This document shows positions 11,951 through 44,479 of a DNA stretch of 64,000 nucleotides, piece by piece. The stretch lies in the NCBI RefSeq assembly GCF_030547005.1, contig NZ_JAUOPN010000001.1:248001-312000 (forward strand). Direction: 5' to 3'. The notes beneath the pieces were generated by a model, which made no database searches, had not been told where the DNA came from, and worked only from the letters and a program-made list of their open reading frames with translations. This DNA comes from Maribacter sp. 1_MG-2023 (lineage in GTDB: Bacteria > Bacteroidota > Bacteroidia > Flavobacteriales > Flavobacteriaceae). How positions within the stretch are numbered: the stretch's first letter is position 1; each line of letters opens with the position of its first letter. Position numbers and translations under genes: made by a program.

Positions 11951-11959
11951 TAAAACTGA

Positions 11960-13135
11960 TTACAAACTTTTTCTAATACCCATTTCTAGTCCTCTTAATT
12001 CAGCTAAACCTCTAAGTCTGCCAATTCCTGAATACCCGGGATTTGTTTTCTTTCTCAGGTCATCTAACATTTTATGGCCGTGGTCTGGTCGCAAAGGCAT
12101 TCTTGTATCTTTTCTACCAGCGGCTTTTCTTTTATATTGTTCTTTTACCAATGCTTTCATTACGGAAAACATATCTACATTTCCTTCTAAATGATTTGCT
12201 TCATGAAAATTGTCGTCGGCATCACGTTGTGTGCTACGTAGATGAATAAAATGAATACGGTTGCCCAAACGTTCTACCATTCCCGGTAAATCATTATCTG
12301 GTCTTACCCCGAATGATCCAGTACAAAATGTTAATCCGTTGTTAGGGCTGTCAACTGCTTGATACAGATCAGCTATATCTTGCTCAGTACTTACCACGCG
12401 TGGTAGGCCTAAAATCGGGAACGGTGGGTCATCTGGGTGTATACACATGCGTATACCAGCCTTTTCAGCAACAGGTATAATTTCAGATAAAAACGCAAAT
12501 AAATGTGCTTTTAATTCTTTTGCTCCAATTGCACTATAGGTTGCTAAAATAGCATTGAACTCTTCTAACGAATAGCCTTCTTCAGCACCTGGTAATCCAG
12601 CTATAATATTGTTTATTAACTTCGTTTTACCTTCTTCAGAAAGATTATCATGGTATGTTTTAGCGGCAGATTTTTGAGATGTTGAATAGGTTTCTTCGGC
12701 ACCAGGTCTTTTTAAAAGGAATAACTCAAACGCTGCGAAAGCAGCAGCTTCAAAACGAAGGGCTTTAGAACCATCTTCAACTTCGTAATCTAAATTGGTT
12801 CTGGTCCAATCTAGCACAGGCATAAAGTTATAGCAGACTGTGTCTATGCCGCATTCACCTAAGTTGGTTAGTGTTTGCTTATAATTTTCGTAGTACGTTT
12901 TATAATCGCCTTTCTGCGTCTTAATTTGCTCGTGAATAGGTACGCTTTCTACGACAGACCAAGTTAAGCCTGCTGCTTCAATAATATTCTTGCGTTGCAT
13001 AATATCGTTTACAGGCCACACGACACCATTGGGTATGCTGTGTAATGCACTAACGACACCTGTTGCACCTGCTTGTTTTATATCTGCTAACGATACTGGG
13101 TCATTCGGACCGTACCAACGCCATGTTTGTTCCAT
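11960..13135 (-). CDS. uxuA: Mannonate dehydratase
   Basis: Converts D-mannonate to 2-keto-3-deoxygluconate in hexuronate catabolism; cytoplasmic, metal-dependent TIM barrel. The 391-residue protein has the family N-terminus ([20 protein letters not shown]), the [16 protein letters not shown] segment, and metal-site regions [34 protein letters not shown] and [11 protein letters not shown]. Length is normal. It is the last of three minus-strand genes (DUF1080, Gfo/Idh/MocA, uxuA) with 32 bp to its upstream neighbour. The company of exported oxidoreductases is unusual: it suggests that a sugar acid formed or released outside is finally dehydrated here. KdgK and Eda, the next pathway steps, are not in the window. 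Confidence 0.95.
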
Positions 13136-14528: not shown

Positions 14529-15908
14529 TTATTCTTTAGTGTTGTTGATAGAACGAATTTTTACATTTTTGAAGGATACAAGATTGCCGTGGTCTTGAAG
14601 TAAAATTTGACCCTTTTCTAACTCTCCGAAATTTGGCCATTTCGCATATTTACTTTCAGCTACTAGCTTTCTGTATGCATCGCTCTTTCTTTCGTATTCA
14701 AGAACTTTTGTGCCGTTTAGCCAATGCTCAACGTGATTGTTTTTAGAAACAATGTGCGCAGTGTTCCACTCTCCAATTGGCTGAATTGGTTTATTGACAT
14801 CTGCCTGTATTAAATCATACAGAGAACTAACAGTTCTGCTACCTTCATGGTTACCCAGTTTTGCATCGGGGTGAAGGTTGTCGTCTAAAATTTGATATTC
14901 TAAACCTATAGAAGAGCCTTCGCCTTTGTTAATATTGGTGTCCACATAATATTTAATACCACTATTGGCACCTGGTGTTAATTTGAAGTCAACTTTTAAT
15001 TCAAAATCTCCATACAATTCTTCAGTAACAATATCGCCACCAGCAGTAGATTCTGCACCTCCAGAAGCCAATACACTTAAAACGCCGTCTTCAACTATCC
15101 ATCCTTTATCAGGAAATTCTTCTAACTTGGCACCTTTCCATCCATTAGTTGTTTTTCCATCCCAAAGTAATTTCCATCCATCTTTCTTTTCATCGATAGT
15201 TAATTGATTTTTGGTGGTGATAGGGGTTAAAGGAGAGGCTTTTGAATATTTGGACACACTATCGGTTACTATTTTTACATTTTTCCAAATAATATCTGTT
15301 CCGGCTTTTTGATCTTTAGAAATACTATGGACTTGTAAACTAATAAATCCCTTAGCTGTTTTGTCATCAATAAGATACGCAGCTGGTACATCGTTAACCC
15401 ATGTTTTTAAAGAATCACCAATAGCTTCGATTCGGTAGTGATTCCACTCATTTTGTTTAAAAGCTTTTTGTGCAGCAGGGTTATCTGTCATAGGATTTAA
15501 CCATCCTCGTCTGCCCTCATCATATATTCCGCCACTCCATGCTCTTTCAGAAGGGTCTATTTCAATTTGATAGCCATGCACTCTACCATTCTGATAATTA
15601 GGGCTGCTGTTACTTCTAATCTGAATACCTGAATTCATGGTAGAATCAACCTTGTAATCCAATTCTAAAATAAAATCATCATATAATTTTTCGGTAGATA
15701 GAAATGTGTTCGGTGTGCCGTGAGTGGTAGTGCCTATTATTGTACCATCTTTTATAGTATAAGTGGCTTCCCCGCCGAGCTTTTGCCAACCATTTAAAGT
15801 TTCGCCGTCAAAAAGGTCTACCCATGGCGTGTCATCTTTTGAATTTTCTTTACAGCTCGAAAAAATCAAAAGAATTAGGATAGCAATTGTGTTTGCTGTT
15901 GTTCGCAT
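14529..15908 (-). CDS. Lipoprotein with two DUF1080 (3-keto-disaccharide hydrolase-type) domains
   Basis: A 459-residue lipoprotein (signal ending in LIFSSC, Cys19). Two copies of the concanavalin-like DUF1080 fold are seen: residues about 28-212 ([18 protein letters not shown], later [18 protein letters not shown]) and about 235-455 ([18 protein letters not shown], later [12 protein letters not shown]). Each has the typical start LxDGxTxxGW and the NSGI motif. DUF1080 proteins include enzymes that cleave 3-keto-glycosides made by an oxidoreductase, which fits the Gfo/Idh/MocA gene 5 bp downstream. It is the first gene of a three-gene operon. Activity and substrate are inferred from family and context only. 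Confidence 0.9.
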
Positions 15909-16287: not shown

Positions 16288-17607
16288 ATGAAGAATGCTA
16301 AAAAATCTAAGAAAATTTCTGGTCAAACCCTTTCTCGAAGAGGTTTTTTGACTAAAACAACCCTGGCTGCTGGGGCAATTACCATTCTGCCAAGGCATGT
16401 TTTCGGCAGGGGTTTTACTGCACCTAGCGATCGAATTAATTTGGGTTTTATAGGCTTAGGTAAACAATGTAATGGGTTAGCTAAGAATTTTATAGGTAAT
16501 ACTAGTGCTCAAATTATTGCCGCCAGCGATGTTTGGTCTACTAAAAATGACTGGTTTAAAGGTCATGTAGAAAGTAATTACGCAGAAAAACGAAATCAAA
16601 AAAACTATAACTCTGTAAAAACATATTTAAATTATAAAGAGCTTTTAGAGCGCAGTGATATTGATGGCGTGGTCATCGCGACGCCTGATCATTGGCATGC
16701 CATACAGGCAATCGATGCTATGAAAGCTGGTAAAGATGTGTATTGTGAAAAGCCTTTAACGCATAATATTGAAGAAGGTATAGCACTTGTCAAGACAACC
16801 AAAAAGACAGGTCAAATTTTGCAAACGGGCAGTATGCAAAGATCATGGAGTTCTTTTAGAAAAGCATGTGAACTAATTCGTAATGGTTACTTGGGCGATA
16901 TTAAACAAGTGCTTGTAAATGTTGGTGACCCAGCTATTCCATATAATTTAAAAGCAGAAACAATGCCGTCTGAAGTTAACTGGAACAATTGGTGTGGTCC
17001 AGCTCCTTTGTTGGCTTATAATCATCGTTTGGCACCTTCTCGTAATGATGTTGATTTTTGGCCAGATTGGCGACTTTTTGAAGAAGTTGGCGGTGGTATT
17101 CTTTGTGATTGGGGTGCGCATATGTTCGATATTGTTCAATGGGCTTTAGATATGGATCGATCAGGACCTGTAAAATACGTTCCGCCAACTGATAAAAATG
17201 CAGTACGCGGATTGAAAATGTATTATGAAAACGGAATAGAAATGATACATGAAGATTTTGGTAGAGGATGGGGTGTGCGTTTTATTGGTTCTGAAGGCAC
17301 TATGGACGTAAGTAGATCGTATTTAGAAACTACTCCAGAAAATATTTTAACTACAGATTTATCTAATGCCAAAGTAAAACTATACAATACTGAGGGTAAT
17401 CATCTTCAAGATTGGTTAGATGCGATGAAGAATAGAACGCAGCCAATTTGCGATGTAGAAACTGGGCATAGATCTGCTACAGTATGCAACATTGCCAACA
17501 TTGCATATAATTTAGGTAGACCGTTAGAATGGAACCCAACAAAAGAGAAGTTTTTAAAAGATGCTGAAGCCAACAAAATGCGTGGTAGAAAAGCACGCAA
17601 GTTTTAA
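16288..17607 (+). CDS. Gfo/Idh/MocA family oxidoreductase, Tat-exported
   Basis: A 439-residue oxidoreductase of the same superfamily as the gene at 13.2 kb but clearly different in sequence. The signal carries a twin arginine (LSRRGFLTKTTLAAGAITIL), the Rossmann motif reads INLGFIGLGKQCNGLAK, and EKPLTHN contains the conserved Lys. The second domain has GGGILCDWGAHMFDIVQWAL, whose His is usually in the active site. The C-terminus is basic (RGRKARKF). It is transcribed alone between a divergent operon and the convergent AraC gene, with a terminator embedded in the AraC 3' end. Likely a periplasmic sugar or inositol-type oxidoreductase; substrate unknown. Confidence 0.93.
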   Translation: MKNAKKSKKISGQTLSRRGFLTKTTLAAGAITILPRHVFGRGFTAPSDRINLGFIGLGKQCNGLAKNFIGNTSAQIIAASDVWSTKNDWFKGHVESNYAEKRNQKNYNSVKTYLNYKELLERSDIDGVVIATPDHWHAIQAIDAMKAGKDVYCEKPLTHNIEEGIALVKTTKKTGQILQTGSMQRSWSSFRKACELIRNGYLGDIKQVLVNVGDPAIPYNLKAETMPSEVNWNNWCGPAPLLAYNHRLAPSRNDVDFWPDWRLFEEVGGGILCDWGAHMFDIVQWALDMDRSGPVKYVPPTDKNAVRGLKMYYENGIEMIHEDFGRGWGVRFIGSEGTMDVSRSYLETTPENILTTDLSNAKVKLYNTEGNHLQDWLDAMKNRTQPICDVETGHRSATVCNIANIAYNLGRPLEWNPTKEKFLKDAEANKMRGRKARKF

Positions 17608-17616
17608 ACAAATTAT

Positions 17617-18486
17617 TTAGATATTCACCTGCTCTTTTCTGAAAAAAGCAGGTGTTTTTCCTGTATGCTTTTTAAATAACCTTGAGAAATAAGAAATGTT
17701 ATTTAAACCCACTTTTTCAGCAATTTCGTTTAAAGAATCATTAGTGGTAAGAAGTAGCAATTGTGATCGCTCTATTCTTTTTTCTTGAATGAATTTATTG
17801 GGGTTAGACTTATATGCCTGTTTAAAAAGCTTTGAAAAATGATCAGGACTATAATTACAAATTTCAGCTAACTCAACTACTGTAATGGGTGATTGTAAAT
17901 TATTGTTGATATAATTCAATATGTTTTGCATTCCATAATTAGCAACCTGTATTTTATTTTGAACATTAAAACTGGTAATAAATTTTGAGAAGAGTACGGT
18001 AAGTAAACCTTGGGTTTCAAGAAAATCTTTTGTGCTCAACACCTCATTCTGCTTAATAAAATCTTGCAATGTAGGTTTATTGTCATATGTTTTTGGATCA
18101 CTATTCATTATTTCTCTATTGCTGTTTAAGGAAAGTAAACGTTCAAAATACTTTTTGTCGTTTTTATCTGCTTCAATTTCATAATTAAAATCTTTTATGC
18201 CGTAGATAGAAATTCCATTATTTACTTCTTCTAAAAAACTAATGTAAAATTGCTCATGGTAGTTGTCACAAGAGAATTTGGCATAACAATAACTTGGTAT
18301 CAAGTACATGTAGCCCGGCTTTAAAGTAAATATCTGATTGTTATGGTACACTTTAGCACTCCCCTTGGTGATGTAATACATTCGGGTGAACGGACTGATC
18401 ACATTTTCAAAATTCCATGATGTGTTAAGCTTGGCATAGCCAACATTCAAAAGAGTTAAGCGTAAAGATTGAAGAACTTGGATCAT
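17617..18486 (-). CDS. AraC family transcriptional regulator
   Basis: A 289-residue regulator with a cupin-like N-terminal sensor (residues about 25-150; SPFTRMYYITKGSAKVYHN, FTLKPGYMYLIPSY) and two C-terminal helix-turn-helix motifs (about 190-285; PITVVELAEICNYSPDHFSK and NEIAEKVGLNNISYFSRLFK). The cupin plus HTH order is that of AraC/RhaS-type sugar activators. It stands between the second Gfo/Idh/MocA gene and the cytochrome operon, and reads away from the latter across 237 bp, so it may control that operon. The target site is not recognisable. Confidence 0.93.
   Translation of the reverse strand: MIQVLQSLRLTLLNVGYAKLNTSWNFENVISPFTRMYYITKGSAKVYHNNQIFTLKPGYMYLIPSYCYAKFSCDNYHEQFYISFLEEVNNGISIYGIKDFNYEIEADKNDKKYFERLLSLNSNREIMNSDPKTYDNKPTLQDFIKQNEVLSTKDFLETQGLLTVLFSKFITSFNVQNKIQVANYGMQNILNYINNNLQSPITVVELAEICNYSPDHFSKLFKQAYKSNPNKFIQEKRIERSQLLLLTTNDSLNEIAEKVGLNNISYFSRLFKKHTGKTPAFFRKEQVNI
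17626..17659 (+). terminator. Rho-independent terminator inside the AraC 3' end
   Basis: CACCTGC pairs with GCAGGTG (extended inside by T/A pairs), followed by five T residues. It lies 18 bp after the Gfo/Idh/MocA stop, within the last coding bases of the convergent AraC gene. Confidence 0.85.
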
Positions 18487-18723: not shown

Positions 18724-21700
18724 ATGACAAATTTTAGCAAACTTATAATTTTAGGATTTTCTATTGTCGTATTATCATCTTGTGGTGGTACCGAGCTTCC
18801 TGAATTGGTTGCGGTAGCTTATGATAAACTGCCGGAAGAAGTAGATTTTAATCAACATGTAAAACCTATATTATCTGATAAATGCTATTTATGCCATGGT
18901 CCAGATAAAGGAAACATTAAAGGAGGTCTACAACTTCATGATGCAGAATTCGCATACGGCGAACTAAGTGAAACGCCTGGTAAGTTTGCGATTACACCTG
19001 GTAATTTAAAGAAGAGCGAATTTTTTCATCGTATTATAACAGATGATCAAGACTTAATCATGCCTGCACCAAGTTCTCATTTAACCCTTACCGCTTATGA
19101 AAAAGCGGTGTTAGTCAAGTGGATAGAAGATGGTGCCGAATACAAAGATCACTGGGCATTTTTGCAACCAGAAAAGTATGATATTCCTAAGGTAGACCAG
19201 AAACAATTCGTTAATAATGAAATTGACAATTTTGTATTGGCAAAGTTAGGTGAAGTCAATCTTAAGCCATCTGAAATGGCTTCGAAAGAGGTATTGTTGC
19301 GTAGAGCTTCTTTTGATTTAATAGGTTTGCCACCAACACCTGAAGAAATAGAATTGTTTTTAAAAGATACTTCTTCGAATGCATTTGAAAAACAAATAGA
19401 TAGATTGCTAGCTTCAACGCACTTCGGGGAACAAATGACCCTCGATTGGATGGATGTTTCGCGCTATGCAGATACCCATGGGTATAGTAATGATAGATAT
19501 AGAGACACTTCACCCTGGCGCGATTGGGTCATTAAATCATTCAATGAAAATATGCCATATGATGAATTTCTGACTTGGCAATTGGCGGGCGATTTGTTTG
19601 AGAATCCTACAATAGAACAAAAACTAGCAACTACATTTAATAGATTGCATCCGCAGAATTTAGAGGGTGGTATTATTGACGAAGAATTTAGGTCAGAATA
19701 TGTTGCCGATAGAACAGCTACAGTAAGTCAAGGTATTTTAGGCTTATCTTATGCCTGTGCAAAATGCCATGATCATAAATACGATCCCATCTCTCAGAAA
19801 AACTATTACGAGATGTATAGCTTTTTCAATAACATAGATGAAACAGGATTGATTCCTTGGGATTTGGCAACACCCGTACCGGCGATGTTATTACCAACTG
19901 AAGAGCAAGAAGGTGTTTTAGCTTATTTAGATGAAATTGTAAAAACCAGTGAGAAAAGACTGGCGGAAATAGAAACAACCGAAGTTAAGAAAGCAGATGT
20001 ATGGTTGGCCAATAACGAGTATAGTAATATTCCGGTGAATTCTAAACCAAATGGTTTGGTTGCTTCATTTAATTTTGATGAACAAAAGCTTATCAATACC
20101 ACTGGTGGTAATGGTCGTAATAAAATTCAAATGCGTCAGCAGTTTGTACAAAATGAAAAAGCGGTTTTTAAACAGGGTTCTTCGGGCAAAGGTTTAGCGA
20201 TGGATGGTGATACGTGGCTAGATTTGGATAAAATTGGAATTTATAAAAGAAATGAACCGTTTAGTGTTTCTATTGAAGTATTTATACCGACAGACTTAGA
20301 CGACGGGGTTATATTCCATAAAATGAATAGCTCAGAACTTCACTCGTTTAGAGGGTATCATCTAAAAATAAAAGAGAATAAAATAGAAGCATTATTAGCA
20401 CATGTGTATCCAGATAATGCGATAGTTATTGAGTCTTTAAACGATGTGCCTAAAGAGAAATGGGTTCAGTTAACGATGACTTATGATGGTTCTAGTAAAG
20501 CTGAAGGAATTTCAATTTATCAAGACGGCGAAAAGCTGAAAACCAAAACTACGTTCGATAATCTTTATAAAGATATTGTATTCAATGGCTTACAATTATA
20601 CGGGGCAAAGAGTCCAAAATTAGAACCTGGTTTAAGAGTAGGGGCTATTTGGCGAGATAAGGGTATTAGAGGGGCTGTAGTTGATAATTTATTGGTGTTC
20701 GATAGAGAAATTTCGGCTATTGAGGTGCTGCAAATAAAGAATTCTGATAAGTTAAAAGAGCTGCAACAAAAGCAATTTTCAAACTTAAGCGAAACTGAAA
20801 AAAAACTATTATCAGAATACTTTTTAAATACAAAATCTAAAGCATATGCAACTGTTCTTAAAGAGGTAGAGCTTAAAAGAAGAACTTTAGTAGATAGTAC
20901 AGAAAGGGTCAAACAAATAATGGTAATGAAAGAGCGTAAAACGCCTCGTCAAGCTTATATTTTAGATCGTGGAAATTACGATTCACCTACCGATTCGGTT
21001 TTTCCGAATGTGCCTGAAGATATTTTATCATGGAAAAAAGAATGGCCAAAAAACAGGCTGGGTTTAGCTAAATGGATAACAGATGAGAAAAATCCGTTGA
21101 CGGCTAGAGTAACGGTGAACAGGTACTGGCAAAATTTATTCGGTAGAGGGTTGGTATTAAGCTCAGAAGATTTTGGTAATCAAGGCGATTTACCTACTCA
21201 CCCTAAGTTGCTAGATTGGTTGGCTATTCGTTTTGTAGACTCAGGCTGGGATGTAAAGGCGTTATTGAAAACCATGATGATGTCAAGAACATACCAACAG
21301 AGTTCGGTTATAAGCGAAGAACTTCTTGCAGTCGATGGGGAAAACAAATGGTTGTCTCGAGGACCTTCTACACGATTATCAGGTGAGATGCTTCGAGATA
21401 ATGCGCTATATGCATCAGGGTTATTAAATGAAAAAATTGGAGGGGAAAGCGTAAAACCTTATCAACCCGAGGGATTATGGGAAGTGAACGGTGATACCTA
21501 TGTTCAAGATAGTGAAGAAGGGCTTTACAGAAGAAGCATGTATACTATTTGGAAGAGAACGGTTCCAAACCCAACTATAGCAACATTTGATGCACCCACA
21601 AGAGATTTATGTTCTTCTCGACGACAGAAAACAAATACGCCATTACAAGCCCTAGTTATACTTAACGATCCTACATACATAGAGGCTTCAAGAGTTCTAG

Positions 21701-21978
21701 GGAAACGAATTTCTGAAGCTACTTCTATTGAAAAGGGTATTCGCTCAGCGTTCAAAAAATTGACGGGTAGAGCACCTAATCAGAAAGAATTGTCATTATT
21801 GATGAATCTTCAGAAAGAAGAGTATTCGAAATTTCAGAAGAACATTGATAAAACAAAGGGCTGGATAAATACAGGAGTTTTTAAATTAAGCGAAGCAGAT
21901 GACAAAGCCCTTATTGCTGCAAATGCAGTAGTGGCAAGTACAATTATGAATGCAGATGCCACCATCACAAAAAGATAA
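18724..21978 (+). CDS. Planctomycete-type cytochrome protein (PSCyt1-DUF1549-LamG-DUF1553)
   Basis: A 1084-residue lipoprotein (signal ends VLSSC). In order: a PSCyt1 cytochrome domain with C54-Y-L-C57-H58; a DUF1549 domain (about residues 160-370; LKPSEMASKEVLLRRASFDL, LPPTPEEI) containing a second haem motif C345-A-K-C348-H349 followed by DHKYDPIS; a LamG/concanavalin-like region (about 445-640); and a DUF1553 domain (about 735-1060; NPLTARVTVNRYWQNLFGRG, RRQKTNTPLQALVILNDP). This architecture is abundant in Planctomycetes and Verrucomicrobia and rarer in Bacteroidota, where it accompanies polysaccharide genes. It probably takes part in periplasmic electron transfer or sugar oxidation; no member has a firm reaction. 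First gene of a five-gene operon; next gene 26 bp away. Confidence 0.92.
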   Translation: MTNFSKLIILGFSIVVLSSCGGTELPELVAVAYDKLPEEVDFNQHVKPILSDKCYLCHGPDKGNIKGGLQLHDAEFAYGELSETPGKFAITPGNLKKSEFFHRIITDDQDLIMPAPSSHLTLTAYEKAVLVKWIEDGAEYKDHWAFLQPEKYDIPKVDQKQFVNNEIDNFVLAKLGEVNLKPSEMASKEVLLRRASFDLIGLPPTPEEIELFLKDTSSNAFEKQIDRLLASTHFGEQMTLDWMDVSRYADTHGYSNDRYRDTSPWRDWVIKSFNENMPYDEFLTWQLAGDLFENPTIEQKLATTFNRLHPQNLEGGIIDEEFRSEYVADRTATVSQGILGLSYACAKCHDHKYDPISQKNYYEMYSFFNNIDETGLIPWDLATPVPAMLLPTEEQEGVLAYLDEIVKTSEKRLAEIETTEVKKADVWLANNEYSNIPVNSKPNGLVASFNFDEQKLINTTGGNGRNKIQMRQQFVQNEKAVFKQGSSGKGLAMDGDTWLDLDKIGIYKRNEPFSVSIEVFIPTDLDDGVIFHKMNSSELHSFRGYHLKIKENKIEALLAHVYPDNAIVIESLNDVPKEKWVQLTMTYDGSSKAEGISIYQDGEKLKTKTTFDNLYKDIVFNGLQLYGAKSPKLEPGLRVGAIWRDKGIRGAVVDNLLVFDREISAIEVLQIKNSDKLKELQQKQFSNLSETEKKLLSEYFLNTKSKAYATVLKEVELKRRTLVDSTERVKQIMVMKERKTPRQAYILDRGNYDSPTDSVFPNVPEDILSWKKEWPKNRLGLAKWITDEKNPLTARVTVNRYWQNLFGRGLVLSSEDFGNQGDLPTHPKLLDWLAIRFVDSGWDVKALLKTMMMSRTYQQSSVISEELLAVDGENKWLSRGPSTRLSGEMLRDNALYASGLLNEKIGGESVKPYQPEGLWEVNGDTYVQDSEEGLYRRSMYTIWKRTVPNPTIATFDAPTRDLCSSRRQKTNTPLQALVILNDPTYIEASRVLGKRISEATSIEKGIRSAFKKLTGRAPNQKELSLLMNLQKEEYSKFQKNIDKTKGWINTGVFKLSEADDKALIAANAVVASTIMNADATITKR

Positions 21979-22004
21979 ATTGGTAACTTTATAAGTATAA
22001 AGCT

Positions 22005-23519
22005 ATGTGTAACGATCATCAACATAAATTAAGGTCTAATAATAAAGATTTACAAAAACTAGAAAGCCAGCTAGATAGAAGGCATTTCTTAAAGAGAACT
22101 TCTTTGGGTATTGGAGCTCTAGCTTTAGGTAGTCTTTTGGGTACCGAAAAATTATTTGCCGGTATTGGAAAGCACAGTGCTCCCGAAGATATTTTAAAGG
22201 CATACAATAAGAATAGATTAGGATTGCCACATCATTTGCCAAAGGCGAAAAGAATCATCTACCTTTTTCAAAGTGGCGGACCATCACAAATGGATCTCTT
22301 CGATTACAAGCCAAAACTTTCAGATATGTTCGGTAAAGAACTACCTGATTCTGTAATGAGCGGTCAACGCTTAACAGGTATGAGCGGTAATCAAAGTACC
22401 TTACCTATTGCACCATCAACTTTTAATTTTAAACAATATGGAGAGTCAAGAGCTTGGGTAAGTGATGCTATGCCATATTTATCTGAGGTGGTAGACGATT
22501 TGTGTTTTATAAAAGGTATGCAAACTGATCAAATTAATCATACACCGGCAATTACTTTTATGCAAACGGGTAATCAGTTACCGGGCAGACCGTCTATTGG
22601 TTCTTGGTTGAGTTATGGTCTTGGTTCTGATAATGAAAACCTACCTACGTTTATTACGCTGGTTTCTAAAAATGGAAAAGGACAACCATTAAAAGCTAGT
22701 TTATGGGGTAACGGATTTTTACCTACCGAACACCAAGGCGTGCAATTTCGCTCGGGTAAAGACCCAGTGTTGTACCTAAGTGATCCAGAGAATTACGATG
22801 GTAATGATCGTAGGCATATGTTAGATTATTTGGGTGATCTTAATAACCTTCAACACGATGCTTATGGTGATCCAGAAATTCAGGCTAGAATGTCGCAGTA
22901 CGAAATGGCTTTTAAAATGCAAACTTCTGTACCTGAGGTTTCAGATCTTTCAGACGAATCAGACAGCACTTTTGAGATGTATGGTAAAGATAGTAGGGAT
23001 CCAGGTACCTATGCCGCAAACTGTCTAATGGCAAGAAAACTATTAGAAAAGGGCGTAAAATTTGTGCAGCTGTATCACCAAGGTTGGGATCAGCACAACT
23101 ACTGTCCGGGTGGGGTTAAAAGTCAATCACAGAAAACAGACCAAGCTACTGCTGCATTGGTTAAAGATTTAAAACAACGTGGTATGCTAGATGATACCTT
23201 GGTAGTTTGGGGTGGTGAATTTGGTAGAACGGTCTATTCTCAAGGTCAACTTACAAAAGAAAACTATGGTCGAGATCATCACCCAAAAGCATTTACCATG
23301 TGGATGGCAGGTGCAGGTGTAAAGCCAGGTTTTAGCTATGGTGAAACTGATGATTTTAGCTATAATGTGGTTAAAGACCCTGTACATGTGCACGATTTTC
23401 ATGCAACGCTTTTATATCTATTCGGTGTTGACCATGAACGATTAACTTTTAAACATCAGGGTAGACGATACCGTTTAACCGATGTTCATGGTAACGTAGT
23501 TAAAGATTTATTAACCTAA
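22005..23519 (+). CDS. DUF1501 domain protein, Tat-exported
   Basis: A 504-residue protein with a twin-arginine signal at residues 27-50 (LDRRHFLKRTSLGIGALALG) and a DUF1501 domain over the rest. DUF1501 has an alkaline-phosphatase/sulfatase-like fold; visible markers are IYLFQSGGPSQMDLFDYKP, QLYHQGWDQHNYCPGG and VVWGGEFGRTVYSQG, and near the end GRDHHPKAFTMWMAGAG. The Asp and His residues in these motifs would be the metal ligands of the fold. It nearly always follows a DUF1549/DUF1553 gene in genomes, as here (26 bp), so the two probably form a functional pair. The reaction is unknown. Confidence 0.93.
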   Translation: MCNDHQHKLRSNNKDLQKLESQLDRRHFLKRTSLGIGALALGSLLGTEKLFAGIGKHSAPEDILKAYNKNRLGLPHHLPKAKRIIYLFQSGGPSQMDLFDYKPKLSDMFGKELPDSVMSGQRLTGMSGNQSTLPIAPSTFNFKQYGESRAWVSDAMPYLSEVVDDLCFIKGMQTDQINHTPAITFMQTGNQLPGRPSIGSWLSYGLGSDNENLPTFITLVSKNGKGQPLKASLWGNGFLPTEHQGVQFRSGKDPVLYLSDPENYDGNDRRHMLDYLGDLNNLQHDAYGDPEIQARMSQYEMAFKMQTSVPEVSDLSDESDSTFEMYGKDSRDPGTYAANCLMARKLLEKGVKFVQLYHQGWDQHNYCPGGVKSQSQKTDQATAALVKDLKQRGMLDDTLVVWGGEFGRTVYSQGQLTKENYGRDHHPKAFTMWMAGAGVKPGFSYGETDDFSYNVVKDPVHVHDFHATLLYLFGVDHERLTFKHQGRRYRLTDVHGNVVKDLLT

Positions 23520-23537
23520 TAATCAACCAATACCCTT

Positions 23538-24644
23538 ATGCCAACCAGAAGAAATTTCATAAAAAGAACCACTATTGCAGGTGCAGCTATAACCTCTGTA
23601 CCGACATTCGGATTCAATATACTGAAAAAGAATAAACCGACTGATACCATATTAGGCCATGGCGATTATCAATACAAGGTGCATAACGATTGGGCGCAAA
23701 TAAGTTCGGTTAGAACACCCTTGTTGAACTGCCATGAAATGGAAATGGATAGTAAAGGTCGTTTAATTATGATCGGTGATCACCCACAGAACAATGTATT
23801 GATCTTTGATAAATCTGGGAAATTATTGGACTATTGGGGAACCGCCTACCCAGGTGGTCATGGGTTGACTATTTCAAATGAAGGTGGCGAAGATTTTCTA
23901 TTCTTGGCAGATTCTGGGTGGTACCTAAATAAAACAGGAAAATTGATAAAGCATAACGGTAGAGTTTCAAAGACTACGATAGACGGTAAAGTGCTTTTTG
24001 ATATTGGGCATCCACAAACTATTGGTGTTTATGAACCGGGACTAAATTATTGCCCTACAGAAGTTGCTGTGGGTCCTAATGGTGATATCTACGTTGCAGA
24101 CGGTTATGGGCAAGATTTTATTTTACAGTATAATTATAAGGGCGAGTTTATTCGCAAATGGGGCGGTCACGAAAATGAAGATTCAAATTATAATCTTCAA
24201 AATGCACATGGTATAGCAATAGATTATAGAGATAAAAATAACCCTATGGTGGTCTGTACTTCTAGAAACGAACAATCGTTTAAGTGGTTTACCCTAGAGG
24301 GTACCTATGTTAAAACACTTAAACTCCCTAATATGCAGGTATGTAGACCTGTTTTTGATGATACTAATTTGTACGCCGGCGTATGTTGGTCTCAACCTAA
24401 AATTGGAAAAACAAATTGGAAAGATCATACTGGCTTTGTTACCATTTTACAAGGTGATAAAGTAGTTTCTAACCCAGGTGGTACTTCGCCCGAATATAAA
24501 AATGGTGAACTGCAAAAATCATATCAGTTAGAGAATAAGCCTATTCTACATGGTCATGATGTATGTGTAGATGAAGATAAAAATTTATACATCTGCCAAT
24601 GGAATGCCAATAAAACGGCACCCATTAAATTAGAACGTGTTTAA
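23538..24644 (+). CDS. NHL-repeat beta-propeller protein, Tat-exported
   Basis: A 368-residue protein with a twin-arginine signal (PTRRNFIKRTTIAGAAITSV). The mature part shows propeller blades of the NHL or peptidylglycine-lyase-like type: MDSKGRLIMIGDHPQNNVLI, GHGLTISNEGGEDFLFLADS, EVAVGPNGDIYVADGYGQDF and GHDVCVDEDKNLYICQW. No haem motif is present. In the cytochrome operons of this type such a propeller may be a carbohydrate-binding or oxidising partner, but the ligand cannot be read. Gene spacing is 18 bp upstream and 21 bp downstream. Confidence 0.88.
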   Translation: MPTRRNFIKRTTIAGAAITSVPTFGFNILKKNKPTDTILGHGDYQYKVHNDWAQISSVRTPLLNCHEMEMDSKGRLIMIGDHPQNNVLIFDKSGKLLDYWGTAYPGGHGLTISNEGGEDFLFLADSGWYLNKTGKLIKHNGRVSKTTIDGKVLFDIGHPQTIGVYEPGLNYCPTEVAVGPNGDIYVADGYGQDFILQYNYKGEFIRKWGGHENEDSNYNLQNAHGIAIDYRDKNNPMVVCTSRNEQSFKWFTLEGTYVKTLKLPNMQVCRPVFDDTNLYAGVCWSQPKIGKTNWKDHTGFVTILQGDKVVSNPGGTSPEYKNGELQKSYQLENKPILHGHDVCVDEDKNLYICQWNANKTAPIKLERV

Positions 24645-24665
24645 AGTGATTTTGAAGAAATAGTT

Positions 24666-26057
24666 ATGGAGAATAGTGTTCCAGATTTTGTATTGTTCTT
24701 AGGTAGATTTCATCCGCTTGTGGTGCATTTACCTATTGGGTTTTTATTCTTTGCGTTTGTATTGGAAGTTTTTAGTAGGTGGAAAAAGAACCCTGTGCTG
24801 ACCTCAGGTACTCCGTTGGCTTTATTTTTAGGTGGACTTAGTGGTGCCGTTGCGTGTATTTTAGGGTATATGTTATCATTAAGTGGCGATTATGAAGAGG
24901 CTGCTTTAGATACTCATTTTTGGTTTGGTATTGCAACCACTGCTATTGCATTTTTAGCATGGGGTATACGAATCGAAAAAATTAAAGTACCAAGTTTAAA
25001 AAAGTTACAGACAAATATTTCATTTTTAACCCTATTGGTAATTCTATTAAGTGTTACGGGTCATTACGGTGGTAACCTTACACATGGTAGTGATTATTTG
25101 GTGAAATATATGCCTTTTGGTGGTGCAGAAAAACAAGAATTGGTTGCGGTCACTAAAGTTGAAGATGCTGAGGTGTTTGGTCATCTGGTAAATCCTATTT
25201 TGCAGAATAAATGCGCAAGTTGCCATAATTCAAGTAAAAAGAAAGGCGGACTTTCAATTGCAGATAGTCTTGCTATTCTTGATGGCGGAAAAAACGGTGA
25301 CATATTAATTCCTGGTGATGCATCGAATTCTGAAATGCTGAAAAGAGTATTGTTAGATCCGCATCACGATGATTTTATGCCGCCCGAAGGTAAAACACCC
25401 TTAACCGAAGAAGAGATAGCTATTTTGACGTATTGGATTGATAATGCGCAGGCGAATTTCAAAACTAAAGTAGCGTCGGTTGAAACAGATGAGAATATTA
25501 TGGGTATAGCTAGCACTATGCTTGGCTTGTCAGCAGGTTCTTCTGATGGTTCAGAGATACCGATTCCGAGTGTGAGTTTAGTTGCTGACGATAAAATAAC
25601 TGAACTACAGGTAGAAGGCTTTAGATTACGTGAACTAGCATTTGAATCTGGATTGTATGAAGCTGTATTAGCGCCAAATTCAAATGAAAATGGTACAACG
25701 GATGCCTTGTCTAAAAAACTAGAAAAATTACTTTCTATAAAAGAGAATATTCTTTGGTTATCATTAGAGAATAATCATATTAAAGATGACCATATAAAAT
25801 TGATTGCTCAGTTTATAAATGTTCAAAAATTGAAGTTGAACGATAATCCGTTGTCAGATGCAGCAGTTGCTCAATTAACGCAGCTAGAGAATTTAACGAG
25901 TGTAAATTTATTAGGTACTGAAATAACGGCTAAAAGTATCCCTTCTTTTTCTGAAATGAAGCAGCTTAAATATGCCTATGTTTGGAAAACGAATATCAAA
26001 AAAGAAGATTTAGAGAAGAAGGGGGTCAATGATTATCCTAAAATTATAATTGATTAA
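24666..26057 (+). CDS. DUF2231 membrane domain fused to cytochrome c and LRR-like region
   Basis: A 463-residue protein in three parts. Residues 1-150 are a membrane domain with about four helices starting FLGRFHPLVVHLPIGFLFFA, the DUF2231 signature with two His that could bind haem or metal. Residues about 165-270 are a planctomycete-type cytochrome c with C183-A-S-C186-H187 and DFMPPEGKTPLTEEEIAILT as the distal part. Residues about 345-460 resemble leucine-rich repeats (LSLENNHIKDDHIKLIAQF, KLKLNDNPLSDAAVAQL). It could anchor the electron chain of the operon in the inner membrane. No signal peptide is separate from the first helix. Confidence 0.87.
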   Translation: MENSVPDFVLFLGRFHPLVVHLPIGFLFFAFVLEVFSRWKKNPVLTSGTPLALFLGGLSGAVACILGYMLSLSGDYEEAALDTHFWFGIATTAIAFLAWGIRIEKIKVPSLKKLQTNISFLTLLVILLSVTGHYGGNLTHGSDYLVKYMPFGGAEKQELVAVTKVEDAEVFGHLVNPILQNKCASCHNSSKKKGGLSIADSLAILDGGKNGDILIPGDASNSEMLKRVLLDPHHDDFMPPEGKTPLTEEEIAILTYWIDNAQANFKTKVASVETDENIMGIASTMLGLSAGSSDGSEIPIPSVSLVADDKITELQVEGFRLRELAFESGLYEAVLAPNSNENGTTDALSKKLEKLLSIKENILWLSLENNHIKDDHIKLIAQFINVQKLKLNDNPLSDAAVAQLTQLENLTSVNLLGTEITAKSIPSFSEMKQLKYAYVWKTNIKKEDLEKKGVNDYPKIIID

Positions 26058-26082
26058 AGCTCAATTAAGAGTACATACGCAC

Positions 26083-27576
26083 ATGAAGAAAGGTATATTT
26101 TTTAGTTGCATTGCTGTTTTAATGTTGAAAGGTTGTTCTGCACAAAAAGTTGTTACCGATACTGAAATTAATAAACAACATTATACAGCCGATTGGGAGT
26201 CGTTGCAGCAATATGAGGTGCCTGAATGGTACAAAGATTTAAAATTCGGAATCTATTTTCACTGGGGACCGTATTCTGTGCCTGCTTATGAAAATGAATG
26301 GTATTCTCGGTGGATGTATGTTGAAGGGCACCCAATAAATACCTACCATAAAGAAACATACGGTTCATTAGATACATTCGGTTACAAAGATTTTGTACCC
26401 ATGTTTAAGGCTGAAGAGTTTGATGCCGATGTTTGGGCAGATTTATTCGTAAAAGCTGGTGCACAATTTGCAGGTCCTATTGCCGAACACGCTGATGGTT
26501 TTGCGATGTGGGATAGCAAACTGACACAATGGGATGCGAAGGATATGGGACCAAAAATTGATGTAGTCGGTGCTATGGAAAAAGCCGTAAAATCTCGGGG
26601 ACTTAAATTTATTACCACCTTTCATCGTCATTGGTTGTATGCATGGTACCCAACTTGGAATGACAATACAGATGCTTCAAATCCACTGTTTGAAGGGCTT
26701 TATGGTCCGAAAGTTCTCGAGGGTACATTTGTTATGGCAAATAAACCTACAAACCCCTTACCTGATGAAAAGTTTAATCAAGATTGGTTAGATCGGCTTA
26801 CGGAATTAACCACTAAGTATGATCCTGATATTGTTTGGTTTGATAACAAAATGGATATTATAGGTGAAGATTATAGAAAGCAATTCTTAGCAGGTTTTTA
26901 TAATAGAGGCCTTGAAAAAGGGAAAGATGTAGTCGTCACCTATAAGTTTACCGATTTAGCGGTGGGCTCTGCAGTTTTAGATTTAGAGCGCTCTAGAATG
27001 AGCGAGAAAAAAGAGTTTACTTGGTTAACTGACGATTCTATAGATTGGAAAGCATGGAGCAACATTGAAAATCCTGAATATAAATCTACCAATAGACTAA
27101 TAGATTTTTTAGTTGATGTGGTTAGTAAAAATGGTGCGGTACTTTTAAATATTACGCCGACCGCTGAAGGTAAAATACCCACGGAGGTTGAAGAACGTTT
27201 GTTGCAAATGGGGGAGTGGCTGGCTATAAATGGAGAAGCTATTTATGGAACTAGACCTTGGAAAATTTATGGAGAAGGACCAGCAGAAGTAATTGAAGGT
27301 CATTTGAGTGAGCATAAAAATGCCGATAATACAGCAGAGGATATTAGATTCACTACTAAAGATGACACGCTTTATGCCATAGTTCTAGATTGCCCACAAA
27401 AAGAAATACATATAAGGGCTCTAGGTAAACAGGAACGAAAAATAAGAAGTATTCAACTTTTAGGGAATCCTGAGAAAATCTCTTGGGCACAAAATGAGAC
27501 TGAACTAATTATTCAAGCTTCTAAAAATAAAAATGGGGATTATGCATTTGCTTATAAGATTGAGTTTGTGAAATAA
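26083..27576 (+). CDS. GH29 alpha-L-fucosidase / alpha-L-galactosidase, lipoprotein (variant active site)
   Basis: A 497-residue GH29 retaining exo-hydrolase with a lipoprotein signal (LMLKGCSA, Cys18). The TIM-barrel domain carries FGIYFHWGPYSVPAY, the nucleophile in VWFDN (Asp254), and the C-terminal beta-sandwich starts near residue 390. The usual His-His-Asp-Gly-Phe motif, whose His residues bind the sugar, reads EHADGF here (His136-Ala137), a change not seen in the other two GH29 proteins of the window. I chose the ATG at 26083; the frame opens at a TTG 33 bp before it that overlaps the previous stop. It is the last gene of the cytochrome operon, 25 bp after it. GH29 removes alpha-L-fucose; some members in red-algal galactan loci remove alpha-L-galactose. 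Confidence 0.9.
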   Translation: MKKGIFFSCIAVLMLKGCSAQKVVTDTEINKQHYTADWESLQQYEVPEWYKDLKFGIYFHWGPYSVPAYENEWYSRWMYVEGHPINTYHKETYGSLDTFGYKDFVPMFKAEEFDADVWADLFVKAGAQFAGPIAEHADGFAMWDSKLTQWDAKDMGPKIDVVGAMEKAVKSRGLKFITTFHRHWLYAWYPTWNDNTDASNPLFEGLYGPKVLEGTFVMANKPTNPLPDEKFNQDWLDRLTELTTKYDPDIVWFDNKMDIIGEDYRKQFLAGFYNRGLEKGKDVVVTYKFTDLAVGSAVLDLERSRMSEKKEFTWLTDDSIDWKAWSNIENPEYKSTNRLIDFLVDVVSKNGAVLLNITPTAEGKIPTEVEERLLQMGEWLAINGEAIYGTRPWKIYGEGPAEVIEGHLSEHKNADNTAEDIRFTTKDDTLYAIVLDCPQKEIHIRALGKQERKIRSIQLLGNPEKISWAQNETELIIQASKNKNGDYAFAYKIEFVK

Positions 27577-27739
27577 TGTATTTCATAAAACACTAGAAAG
27601 CTATATTTATAGATAGCAATTGGTTAATCGGGAATAAAGCTTTTTAAGTTTTATGATGAAAGATCATATGTTATAGTGTAAAAAACATTTGAAAAGATAT
27701 TTCTTTAGTGGTCGATTAACTTTATATAAAACAAAAAGA

Positions 27740-28930
27740 ATGAAGTTTTATATGTTGAATTATACGATATTTTATGCACTAGCTGTATTTGTATTTACCT
27801 CTTGCAGTAGTGGCGATGACTCCGCTAATAAGGTTGAGCTAGATACTGTAGCCCCTACAATAAATTGTCAAGAATCTATAACTATAAACGTTGAGTCTTT
27901 CGTAGATGGTGCTGAGGTTACTTATGAAACTCCCAAAGGCAGCGATAACGTAAGCGCAATTACATCTCAAATTGAGGGTTTGGCAACAGGAGCAAAATTT
28001 CCGATAGGTACAACAATCAATACTTTTGAGGCTAGAGATGCAGCAGGAAATAAAACGACATGTAGTTTTGAAATTACCGTTGTACAGAATGATCCATCTG
28101 TAAACCTGCCTTATTTTATCAATGCAAACCCTACACCTGAAGGCAAAAAATGGACAAAAGTCGAGAATATGTCAGATGAATTTAATGGAACCACTTTCGA
28201 TGATGACAAGTGGCATAGAAGCCCATCGACCGATGGCTTTAATTGGATCGGTCGCCCACCGGGCTTATTTGAGTCTGATAATGTTTCTGTTAATGAAGGT
28301 AACATGAATGTTACTACCGAAGAATTTGAAATTCCAAAAACAGTTAATGGTATAGAGTTTACTCATGGTGGTGCAATAGTACGTTCTAAGTTAAATGCAA
28401 AACATGGGCATTATTATGAATGTAGAATGCAAGCGAATAAAACAATTATGTCTTCTACTTTTTGGATTTCTTTTCAACAGAATTGTAATACTGGTCCTCT
28501 AAGAAAACTCGAATTAGATATACAGGAATGTGTGGGTAGACTTACAACGACCGCGGCTTGGGCTGCAGATTTTGATCATATATATGCTTCTAATACTTGG
28601 AGACATGAAAGGGAATGTGATACCGAAGTTACCGGGTCATTACAAAGTCCCGCCAAAACAGTTTTAGAAGAAAAAAATAATTCTAGATACTTTGTATACG
28701 GATGCTGGTGGAAATCGCCAACTGAGATATTATTTTACTTGGATGGACAATTAGCACATACCATTACAAATCCTCCTGCTGATTTTGATTTAGAGGGTCA
28801 TTTAACCATGGCAATAGAAACCTATGACTGGAACCCGATAGATTCTGAAACCATCTTTGAAACAGGTTCTTTTGATGATTTAACCACAAAATATGATTGG
28901 ATTAGGTCTTGGAAATTAGAGGATGAATAA
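27740..28930 (+). CDS. GH16 endo-galactanase with HYR domain, lipoprotein
   Basis: About 396 residues from the ATG at 27740 (an in-frame TTG at 27689 is less likely). Lipoprotein signal ending FTSCSSGDDS; the Ser/Asp-rich start after Cys22 is like the export signal that places lipoproteins on the Bacteroidota surface. Residues 36-115 form a HYR/immunoglobulin-like domain (DTVAPTINCQESITINVES, ARDAAGNKTTCSFEITV). Residues about 135-396 form GH16 with the catalytic ELDIQE (Glu258 nucleophile, Asp260, Glu263 acid/base). Related GH16 groups cut agar, porphyran or furcellaran-type galactans; the exact one cannot be told. A strong terminator follows 42 bp later. Confidence 0.9.
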   Translation: MKFYMLNYTIFYALAVFVFTSCSSGDDSANKVELDTVAPTINCQESITINVESFVDGAEVTYETPKGSDNVSAITSQIEGLATGAKFPIGTTINTFEARDAAGNKTTCSFEITVVQNDPSVNLPYFINANPTPEGKKWTKVENMSDEFNGTTFDDDKWHRSPSTDGFNWIGRPPGLFESDNVSVNEGNMNVTTEEFEIPKTVNGIEFTHGGAIVRSKLNAKHGHYYECRMQANKTIMSSTFWISFQQNCNTGPLRKLELDIQECVGRLTTTAAWAADFDHIYASNTWRHERECDTEVTGSLQSPAKTVLEEKNNSRYFVYGCWWKSPTEILFYLDGQLAHTITNPPADFDLEGHLTMAIETYDWNPIDSETIFETGSFDDLTTKYDWIRSWKLEDE

Positions 28931-38829: not shown

Positions 38830-39413
38830 AAGTTGTGAATGTAATTAAGTTTAGTTCAGCAAATATTTAATTATTCCACCGGGTCCAGGATAACAAATGT
38901 TTTTTAAAGGGTAACAAATGTGTTTGTCTAAAAAAAAATGTTAAAGTGGTTGCTACTTTTTATTTTTAGGGCTTTTTAATTCCATTTTCACAATTATCAT
39001 GCTTAATTATTATGAAATTTGTTTTTTTTGATAGCAACTGCAGGATTAAATAATTTAGCGTGTAATTCATTATTGGTAGTGGTATAAACAATCTCAAATG
39101 CAAGGAGCATTTTTATGTAAATAGGTTACGTGTAAGTTTATTTGTGAAATTGTTATGCTACATCTATTTGGTAATCGATATATGTAAAAAGCTACCTTTA
39201 ATAAGTATACTCTTGGGTAATAGAATGAAGAAAACATCACTTTTAAAATAGAGAATTATGTCTTTATAAAGTGATTATCTTATTGCATATAGCTCATATG
39301 TTTTGTTCATAAAATCATTTGTTATTCCATAGTTCTAAAAAATAGGTAACTTTTGTAAAGCGTGTAATGCGTATCATGTATTGCAAATTCTGACCTTAAA
39401 AACTCTCTTAAAA
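38830..39413. promoter_or_regulatory. Divergent control region between SusC and the first sulfatase
   Basis: A 584-bp AT-rich spacer, the longest non-coding stretch of the window, between the SusCD operon (minus) and the sulfatase/GH29 operon (plus). Two direct repeats of TAACAAATG lie at 38891-38899 and 38912-38920, 21 bp apart, and one inverted copy at 39316-39324. A TAACTTTTG near 39357 is close to a -7 element for the plus-strand genes. No small ORF is supported. Confidence 0.55.
38888..38922. repeat. Tandem repeat GGRTAACAAATG, 21-bp spacing
   Basis: Copies GGATAACAAATGTT (38888-38901) and GGGTAACAAATGTG (38909-38922) match at 12 of 14 positions and start exactly 21 bp apart, two turns of the helix. 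They lie 59-93 bp before the SusC start, a fit for regulator binding. Confidence 0.6.
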
Positions 39414-41075
39414 ATGTTCAAAAAACTCTTTTTTATTTTTCTGATAGGTGTATTTTTTTCTGCTTGTGAAGAAGCTCCTAAAGAAACTGTTGAGGCTAAA
39501 AAACCAAACATCATTTATATAATGGCCGATGATCATACGACTCAGGCCTTTGGTATTTATGGTAGTAGATTGGCGACCTTAAACCCGACACCGGCTTTAG
39601 ATCAGTTAGCGAATGAGGGAATGGTCTTTGATAATTGTTTTGTTACAAATGCGATTTGTACGCCAAGTAGAGCTACAATAATAACAGGTCAATATAGCCA
39701 AGCAAACGGTGTGTTAGATCTAGAAGGTCATATACCACCAGATAGGCAATATTTGCCTCAAGAAATGGGCAAGTTAGGTTATGAGTCTGCTATTGTGGGT
39801 AAATGGCACTTAGAAGAAGAACCTGCATCATTTGATTATTATGCGGTTTTACCTGGGCAAGGTAAATACCATGATCCCGAGTTTATTGTACAAGGTGAGG
39901 AAGAATGGCCTAAAAATAGAATTGAAACTACGGGGCACTCCAGTGATAATATCACCGATTTAACTATTGAATGGTTAAAGGATAAAAGAAATAAAGACAA
40001 GCCATTTTTCTTAATGCACCACTATAAAGCGCCGCATGATGATTTTGAGTATGCGCCTAGATATAAAGATTATTTAGAAGATGCATATATACCAGAGCCG
40101 GCCAGCTTGTATGTAAATGGTAATAATGGTTCTGTTGCAACTAGAGGAAATAATGATTCGTTGTTAACTGTTATAGGCTCGTCTGTTTCTAAACGAAATA
40201 CCATTAGAAGTATGGGTATGCGATTATGGAGCGATGAGTTCACGAAAATCTCTAATCCTGAGTTTAATGCTTCTTTTCAAAAGAAACTAAACTTAAGTGA
40301 TAGAGAATATACGCATGCCACTTATCAAGAATATTTAAAAAGATACTTACGTTGTGTGAAAGGTGTAGATGATAATGTGGCGCGATTAATCAAATTTTTA
40401 AAAGAAGAGGGGCTTTATGATAATACTATAATTGTGTATACGGGTGATCAAGGGTTTATGCTAGGGGAACATGATTATATTGATAAAAGATGGATGTATG
40501 AAGAATCTATGCGTATGCCATTCTTTGTACGTTATCCTGAAAAAATAAAAGCAGGTACTAGAACTGATGCCATTATCAATAATGCCGATTTTGCACCTAC
40601 TTTAATTGATATGGCTGGTGGTACAGCACCTGAACAAATGCAGGGACATAGTTTTAAAACTATTCTAGAAACGGGAAAAGAGCCAGAGGGCTGGCAACAA
40701 TCTACCTACTATAGATATTGGATGCATATGGCGCATGCGCATGCTAACCCAGCGCATTTTGGTATTCGTACAAAACAATATAAACTTATCTTTTTCTATG
40801 GTAAGTATTGGGTAGATACAAAAGATCTGAAGGCAACGTGGAATAAAAAAAGTTGGGGTAATAGGTTTGAGATAGATACACCTGTCGCGTGGGAGTTTTA
40901 TGATTTAGGTAAGGATCCTGAAGAAATGAACAATGCATATGATAACCCTGTTTACAAAGATGTAATTGCAGATTTAAAAAATCAACTTTTACAAAAGCGA
41001 AAGAGTTTAAATGAAGAGGATGGCGATAAGTATCCACATATTCAGAAGGTAATAGATGAACACTGGAATGATTAA
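39414..41075 (+). CDS. S1 family sulfatase, lipoprotein
   Basis: A 553-residue formylglycine-dependent sulfatase. Lipoprotein signal (GVFFSACEE, Cys18), metal-binding start YIMADDHTTQAFG, and the maturation motif C82-T-P-S-R86, in which Cys becomes formylglycine. Further metal-site motifs are GKWHLEE and VYTGDQGFMLGEH. The region MHHYKAPHDDFEYAPRYKDYL is like exo-sulfatases acting on 6-sulfated sugars, but I cannot assign the S1 subfamily. I chose the ATG at 39414; the frame opens at a TTG 33 bp earlier. First gene of a plus-strand operon (next gene 38 bp away). It presumably removes sulfate from the algal galactan outside the cytoplasm. Confidence 0.94.
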   Translation: MFKKLFFIFLIGVFFSACEEAPKETVEAKKPNIIYIMADDHTTQAFGIYGSRLATLNPTPALDQLANEGMVFDNCFVTNAICTPSRATIITGQYSQANGVLDLEGHIPPDRQYLPQEMGKLGYESAIVGKWHLEEEPASFDYYAVLPGQGKYHDPEFIVQGEEEWPKNRIETTGHSSDNITDLTIEWLKDKRNKDKPFFLMHHYKAPHDDFEYAPRYKDYLEDAYIPEPASLYVNGNNGSVATRGNNDSLLTVIGSSVSKRNTIRSMGMRLWSDEFTKISNPEFNASFQKKLNLSDREYTHATYQEYLKRYLRCVKGVDDNVARLIKFLKEEGLYDNTIIVYTGDQGFMLGEHDYIDKRWMYEESMRMPFFVRYPEKIKAGTRTDAIINNADFAPTLIDMAGGTAPEQMQGHSFKTILETGKEPEGWQQSTYYRYWMHMAHAHANPAHFGIRTKQYKLIFFYGKYWVDTKDLKATWNKKSWGNRFEIDTPVAWEFYDLGKDPEEMNNAYDNPVYKDVIADLKNQLLQKRKSLNEEDGDKYPHIQKVIDEHWND

Positions 41076-44401: not shown

Positions 44402-44426
44402 TTTGTTAGTTTAATTTAATTGTTCG

Positions 44427-44464
44427 CCAAGACTTTTGTTGTTAGAGGTCTTGGTTTTTTTTTA
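44427..44464 (+). terminator. Rho-independent terminator
   Basis: CCAAGAC pairs with GTCTTGG around a 14-base loop and is followed by about ten T residues. It ends the sulfatase-DUF5060-GH29 transcript and shows that translation of the next gene starts after it, at 44480. Confidence 0.85.
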
Positions 44465-44479
44465 TTAAAATCGATTATT

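Follow-up and report, generated by a model that had tools for sequence, protein, structure and literature searches.

Described relatives of the locus

In Verrucomicrobia, PSCyt-type genes lie near sulfatases and carbohydrate-binding domains, and the function of the PSCyt genes is stated as unknown (He et al., 2017, PMC5615132). The PSCyt/PSD pairs of Planctomycetes and Verrucomicrobia place a PSCyt1-PSCyt2-PSD1 protein beside a DUF1501 protein, and the same arrangement opens a five-gene operon at positions 18,724 to 27,576 of a 64,000-nucleotide stretch from Maribacter sp. 1_MG-2023 (contig NZ_JAUOPN010000001.1, positions 248,001 to 312,000), which was analysed as a whole and is hereafter called the window. 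Unlike in those pairs, genes for an NHL propeller and a DUF2231-cytochrome protein follow here, an AraC-type gene is present, and a gene of glycoside hydrolase family GH29 stands directly behind the cytochrome gene in 6 of 43 loci. The first four genes, here called the cassette, are a variant of a known but unexplained PSCyt-DUF1501 gene pair. In cultured Maribacter, Cellulophaga and Algibacter, this version is linked to a single sugar and a single clade of enzymes through operon structure, tree and co-occurrence, which provides a small, tractable case for studying both PSCyt/DUF1501 function and the use of algal L-galactose by marine bacteria.

Two further systems invite comparison. Like the window, the Bacteroides plebeius locus PUL-PorB contains an S1_11-type sulfatase, GH29, GH16, SusC, SusD and GH2; it differs in that no cytochrome cassette is named in the available part of the source (PMC12316285), and its GH29 carries the pocket motif EHHDGF where that of the cassette-linked GH29 reads EHADGF. 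In Caulobacter, a periplasmic 3-ketolactose route formed by LacABC and DUF1080 proteins is proposed (PMC9007349). Sugar oxidation is thus placed beside DUF1080 genes, and the window also holds two genes of this 3-keto-disaccharide hydrolase family (14529-15908 and 44420-45403), one of them two-domain. In contrast to the Caulobacter route, no GMC-type or LacA-like gene was found by Pfam among 38 of the 40 open reading frames (ORFs) of the window, and the cassette proteins belong to other families.

Pairing of the cassette with a GH29 enzyme

The pairing of GH29 with the cassette is real but clade-limited. The initial annotation had read five genes spaced 18-26 bp apart as one operon, and the coordinates bear out their order and spacing, with gaps of 26, 18, 21 and 25 bp between genes that all lie on the forward strand. 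Gene 1 (18724..21978) encodes a PSCyt1-PSCyt2-LamG-PSD1 protein, which belongs to the PSCyt1-PSCyt2-PSD1 class by its haem motifs and by three domains above their Pfam cut-offs (PSCyt1, PF07635, 46.4 bits against 22; PSCyt2, PF07583, 281 against 29.8; PSD1, PF07587, 339 against 28.5). Gene 2 (22005..23519), beside it, is a DUF1501 member (PF07394, 524.9 bits against 27) that spans the profile from 1 to 390 of 390. Gene 3 (23538..24644) encodes the NHL propeller, and gene 4 (24666..26057) a DUF2231 membrane domain joined to a c-type cytochrome domain (PSCyt1) and an LRR-like tail. The proposed domain make-up was recovered by Pfam except for this leucine-rich repeat (LRR) tail, which has no Pfam match at E 0.001 and finds LRR proteins in the PDB weakly (best E 0.0009). 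Gene 5 (26083..27576) is a GH29 member (Alpha_L_fucos, 321.7 bits against 25.2, with Fucosidase_C) in which the Asp and Glu expected to act in catalysis are kept. The ORF opens mechanically at a TTG at 26050; the ATG at 26083 was chosen as the start because it agrees with the orthologues and with the lipoprotein signal. The cassette is probably controlled by an AraC-type regulator (17617..18486, reverse strand; Pfam) whose gene diverges from gene 1.

A scan with protein 4, to which only loci that contain protein 4 are visible, returned 29 named Flavobacteriaceae loci and three weak ones, and a sample of 349 Flavobacteriaceae genomes gave 13 further close loci. The closest named relative of protein 4 is from Maribacter spongiicola (97%). 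The working set of 42 further loci omits four that occupy the same places as others (L034, L036, L039 and L045, equivalent to L008, L014, L019 and L026) as well as the weak L030-L032, and it includes L042, a second cassette copy in the genome of L019. By profiles, the PSCyt, DUF1501 and protein 4 genes stand together in these 42 loci, with the NHL gene in 33 and an AraC-type ORF within the fetched flank of 39; an S1_11-type sulfatase at 60% identity or more lies within the fetched flanks of nine. Directly behind protein 4, GH29 was found in five (L001-L004 and L029), so that GH29 is operonic in the window and five other loci from three genera. The same place is taken by S1_11 in four loci (L006, L007, L011 and L033), GH2 in two, a di-haem CCP_MauG protein in five by Pfam and a sixth (L049) by length alone, a second PSCyt gene in nine Arenibacter loci and something else in 16.

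Several of these variants have features of their own. The CCP_MauG genes begin 1-25 bp after the cassette, in the place of GH29 (L014:11416-12585, L035:10530-11732, L038:10632-11810, L043:10338-11510 and L047:10047-11198). In the Arenibacter loci L012, L017, L018, L022 and L027, a second PSCyt-DUF1501-protein 4 set stands in tandem behind the first. L040 and L042 are close cassette copies without NHL, in surroundings that by eye appear housekeeping-like, and thus the cassette can stand alone. Across Bacteroidota, 25 of 213 genomes, that of Maribacter among them, contain a version of protein 4 at E 1e-30, in most cases a distant one.

In a tree of proteins 1 and 2, the six GH29-bearing loci fall in two places. 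The window groups with M. spongiicola, C. baltica and C. fucicola, and two Algibacter loci stand beside MauG-bearing Tamlana. A single clade of GH29-bearing loci was rejected (log-likelihood 105.9 lower; approximately unbiased test, p 3e-14) in a quick LG+G4 tree of 23 loci, and a 44-row tree gives the same two places. Similarity among the six operonic GH29s is 75-96%, with the Algibacter copies (81%) closer to that of the window than the C. fucicola copy is (75%). From the two places in the tree and these similarities, two histories suggest themselves, a double acquisition of GH29 by the cassette or an exchange of the cassette next to GH29.

Co-occurrence was counted in the 349-genome sample, which includes four already-named genomes (G251, G342, G403 and G484). 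A close cassette was defined by a match to protein 4 at E 1e-130 or better, the next match being at 6e-91; at most four candidates per genome were scored for the cassette, S1_11 and the GH29 clade, so that some may have been missed. On this basis, 17 genomes have a close cassette, 18 the GH29 clade, 33 S1_11 (G625 and G630 among them, each with a 60-65% copy only) and 88 the alginate lyase PL7, which served as the lifestyle control. A GH117-type gene at 48762 was not used as an agar control because its two best relatives in the PDB are called hypothetical proteins. The GH29 clade is present in 12 of the 17 cassette genomes and in 6 of the 332 others (odds ratio 130, one-sided Fisher p 2e-14), and S1_11 in 14 of 17 against 19 of 332 (odds ratio 77, p 1e-13); the p values are too small because the genomes are related. 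The control is weaker, at 10 of 17 against 78 of 332 (odds ratio 4.7, p 0.003). With the Maribacter genome removed, the overlap with the cassette is 11 of 16 for GH29, 13 of 16 for S1_11 and 9 of 16 for PL7. The GH29 link holds among PL7-positive (9/10 against 5/78), PL7-negative (3/7 against 1/254) and S1_11-positive genomes (12/14 against 6/19), and all 18 genomes with the GH29 clade are also S1_11-positive. Of the 12 genomes that have both, 4 (the Maribacter genome, G334, G403 and G531) place GH29 no more than 35 kb from the cassette. Among the 29 named cassette genomes, S1_11 at 68% or more is present in 27 and the GH29 clade at 61% or more in 16.

In planctomycetes, the comparison drew on 60 high-scoring DUF1501 sites from 7 of 16 matching genomes (30 searched), which are not a random draw and were found with profiles trained on flavobacterial sequences. 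DUF1501 was recovered in 59 of these regions, a PSCyt-type gene in 51, a sulfatase in four, a Gfo-type gene in three and DUF1080 in two. The PSCyt-DUF1501 pair is shared with Planctomycetes, and GH29 was found in none of the 60 regions. In some planctomycetes, PSCyt/DUF1501 genes are among the expanded families, with 38 DUF1501 matches in one genome (G650) and at least 43 in another (G675, where 43 of 129 candidates were scored).

The GH29 clade and its probable sugar

The best PDB matches of the operonic GH29 are the entries of the exo-alpha-L-galactosidase BpGH29 (7ljj and 7snk), and its Asp265 and Glu313 (508-residue numbering) align with the likely active site of that enzyme. These two residues, encoded at 26842-26844 and 26986-26988, are probably the catalytic pair. 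BpGH29, the second GH29 of the window (GH29_B) and the GH29s of L006 and L007 share the pocket motif EHHDGF, which in the operonic enzyme reads EHADGF, an Ala encoded at 26491-26493 taking the place of the second His; WFDN likewise replaces the WFDW of BpGH29. Neither pocket pattern matched in the third GH29 of the window (GH29_C) or in that of L062. The motifs EHADGF, WFDN and DLER are common to all 21 clade members read, namely the window copy, its five orthologues in operons and 15 relatives (BLAST, 57-62%), the last a subset chosen from those found that leaves out the G304 copy and others. These enzymes look like a separate clade with an altered sugar pocket. An assignment of the operonic enzyme to the BpGH29 type was withdrawn, as it carries EHADGF instead of EHHDGF and shares only about 40% identity with the other two GH29s of the window.

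The initial annotation had left the released sugar as L-fucose or L-galactose. The gene context makes L-galactose the likelier of the two at this locus, given homologues of exo-L-galactose-6-sulfatase, porphyranase and GH117 together with SusCD, and L-fucose correspondingly less likely. In PDB sequence searches, a GH16 (27689..28930, forward strand) is nearest to porphyranase B, and the S1_11-type sulfatase that co-occurs with the cassette (39381..41075, forward strand) is nearest to exo-L-galactose-6-sulfatase (7lha). The window also contains the GH117-like protein, the two further GH29s, three more sulfatases, GH2, SusC and SusD. With porphyranase-type GH16, S1_11, GH29 and SusCD homologues together, it is by sequence similarity a porphyran-type locus. 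Elsewhere, a member of the GH29 clade lies within 300 bp of S1_11 in G303, G304, G305 and G550, a proximity that again points to L-galactose. The operonic GH29 thus probably releases L-galactose from red-algal sugar chains.

Haem motifs and export signals

The initial annotation had counted four CxxCH-type haem motifs, and a motif scan confirmed all of them: residues 54 and 345 of protein 1 (18883-18897 and 19756-19770), residue 183 of protein 4 (25212-25226) and residue 645 of a PVC-type cytochrome encoded at 9665. The motif was not found in proteins 2, 3 and 5, the neighbouring Gfo and AraC proteins or 31 other ORFs of the window (15,155 residues, the ORF at 293-751 set aside), and shuffled sequences give a chance expectation of at most 0.0005 per protein. 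In alignments of 28 copies of protein 1 and 26 copies of protein 4, the motifs of these two proteins do not vary. In addition, five His residues are invariant in the DUF2231 part of protein 4, and the DUF1501 protein has invariant His, Asp and Glu residues. Read directly, the N-termini show twin-arginine motifs in proteins 2 and 3 and lipobox-like Cys residues in proteins 1 and 5; because of these signals, the operon proteins should be located in the membrane or outside the cytoplasm.

Structure prediction was applied to two of the proteins. A model of the PSCyt protein (predicted local distance difference test score, pLDDT, 69) returned mostly lectin-like domains among its 50 best Foldseek matches in the PDB; we take these to reflect the LamG insert, and they leave the haem-bearing parts unexplained. 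An AlphaFold model of DUF1501 built from 26 close rows was discarded as too poor (pLDDT 39). A peptidylglycine-lyase-type zinc site in the NHL protein was also considered, on a phmmer match to 3fvz (E 4e-5); as a profile search (1e-8) brought up four TRIM-type sequences and nothing else, it was left as a lead.

Possible roles of the cassette

The travelling together of cassette and GH29 in related bacteria suggests a testable job for the cassette. In the reading that we favour, with a probability of roughly 0.4, genes 1-4 form a periplasmic cytochrome system coupled to the breakdown of porphyran L-galactose, in which GH29 would free the sugar and the cassette would oxidise it, passing the electrons into the respiratory chain. 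From homology and context, the S1_11 sulfatase would strip the 6-sulfate from terminal L-galactose, and the GH29 lipoprotein would then cut off the L-galactose in the periplasm. The anatomy of the PSCyt and DUF1501 proteins suggests that these two, with the NHL protein, might oxidise the freed sugar, at whichever of its carbons. Electrons would leave protein 1 through its c-haems, enter the c-haem and then the membrane domain of protein 4, and finally reach the quinone pool as last acceptor, in a system that would lie at the inner membrane; the five invariant His residues of the DUF2231 part perhaps help to carry them to the membrane.

Several findings weigh against this coupling. GH29 is not directly behind the cassette in 37 of the 42 close loci, the GH29 clade is missing from 5 of the 17 cassette genomes and S1_11 from 3, and the GH29 clade occurs without the cassette in six genomes. 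L040 and L042 show no polysaccharide genes by the labels used, save a DUF1080 gene by L042. By Pfam, no dehydrogenase cofactor domain is present in genes 1-4. Genomes with distant cassettes only are also associated with S1_11 (13/70 against 6/262, p 6e-6), and the planctomycete regions lack GH29. Given these 37 loci, 5 genomes and 60 planctomycete regions, the pairing is not general to these families; the conserved pairing on which the initial proposal depended nevertheless holds up, on two tree branches and in a strong genome association.

The foremost alternative is that the cassette of these red-algal degraders acts on a different sugar or has a general redox role in the periplasm, and that GH29 stands behind it for common regulation, with no metabolic coupling. 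The wide variation of the gene behind the cassette and the enrichment of PL7 fit this account. So does the link of S1_11 to distant cassettes, and the cassette-S1_11 link may for this reason be due in part to lifestyle. However, the GH29 link persists whether or not PL7 is present and among S1_11-positive genomes, and distant cassettes show no significant association with the GH29 clade (3/70 against 3/262, p 0.11). A shared lifestyle as the whole explanation seems rather unlikely.

A reversed order of steps appears improbable, but it is compatible with the altered pocket and the varied slot-3 proteins, slot 3 being the position of the NHL gene. Here the PSCyt/DUF1501 complex would be an extracytoplasmic, respiration-linked dehydrogenase of L-galactosyl ends, with a keto sugar as one conceivable product. 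Cleavage of the oxidised residue would then fall to the altered GH29 or to the exported slot-3 protein, in a two-step system that co-evolved and that would amount to a 3-keto-type pathway in the periplasm for an L-sugar of algae. The consistent EHADGF of the clade, set against EHHDGF in GH29_B, L006, L007 and BpGH29, is in its favour, as is slot 3 of some distant cassettes, which holds a xylose-isomerase-like protein in L050:7642-8550 and L062:10647-11555 (both below the Pfam cut-off) and L069:11078-11956 (above it), and a Mal s 1-like propeller in L056:8227-9147. The L050 protein has no PDB sequence match at 0.01. The periplasmic 3-ketolactose route proposed in PMC9007349 provides a parallel, and DUF1080 and Gfo genes lie nearby in the window. 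The Gfo/Idh/MocA gene (16288..17607, forward strand), whose product has a twin-arginine motif, adjoins the AraC gene and is associated with the cassette, its membership being unsure; such a gene lies inside the cassette operon in L046:1334-2671 and L048:16998-18338, and relatives are found near the cassette in L001, L002 and L029. Against the model NF058561 for glycoside 3-dehydrogenases, however, the Gfo protein scores 165 bits, far under the cut-off of 750, and it was not assigned to that family. The pocket change, read from sequence, may also suit another modification or another sugar. If this order of steps were true, the PSCyt-DUF1501 families, present in dozens of copies in some planctomycetes, would gain an assigned reaction.

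It is also quite unlikely that DUF1501 belongs with the metal hydrolases of sulfatase or phosphatase type, such that the cassette would act on sulfate or other esters with the haems in a side role. The invariant His, Asp and Glu residues of DUF1501 speak for such an activity, as they may resemble the metal sites of the alkaline-phosphatase superfamily; the sole PDB sequence match of DUF1501 is an arylsulfatase, but at a non-significant E of 0.47.

P450s are the kind of enzyme known for removal of 6-O-methyl-galactose, and a P450 gene with a ferredoxin-like ORF behind it lies about 63 kb past the window in the same genome (L161:1064-2547, contig C1 at about 376 kb). With that gene pair at the only own-genome locus read, and with the GH29 link left unexplained, it is scarcely credible that the cassette demethylates the 6-O-methyl-D-galactose of porphyran, although this sugar is present there and its known removal is oxidative (PMC10033563).

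Neighbouring genes

Returning to the preferred coupling of cassette and L-galactose breakdown, the operon may extend beyond GH29. The porphyranase-B-like GH16 follows 112 bp downstream on the same strand and is possibly part of the same transcript as genes 1-5; no terminator-like site was listed in this gap, in a promoter and terminator scan that performed at chance level overall. The PVC-type cytochrome (9665-11950), which the initial annotation had set beside the operon, does have its haem motif; it was not counted in the unit, as it adjoins mannonate genes, lying between a D-mannonate oxidoreductase-like gene and a mannonate dehydratase (8846-13135). It is perhaps another periplasmic cytochrome tied to sugar acids.

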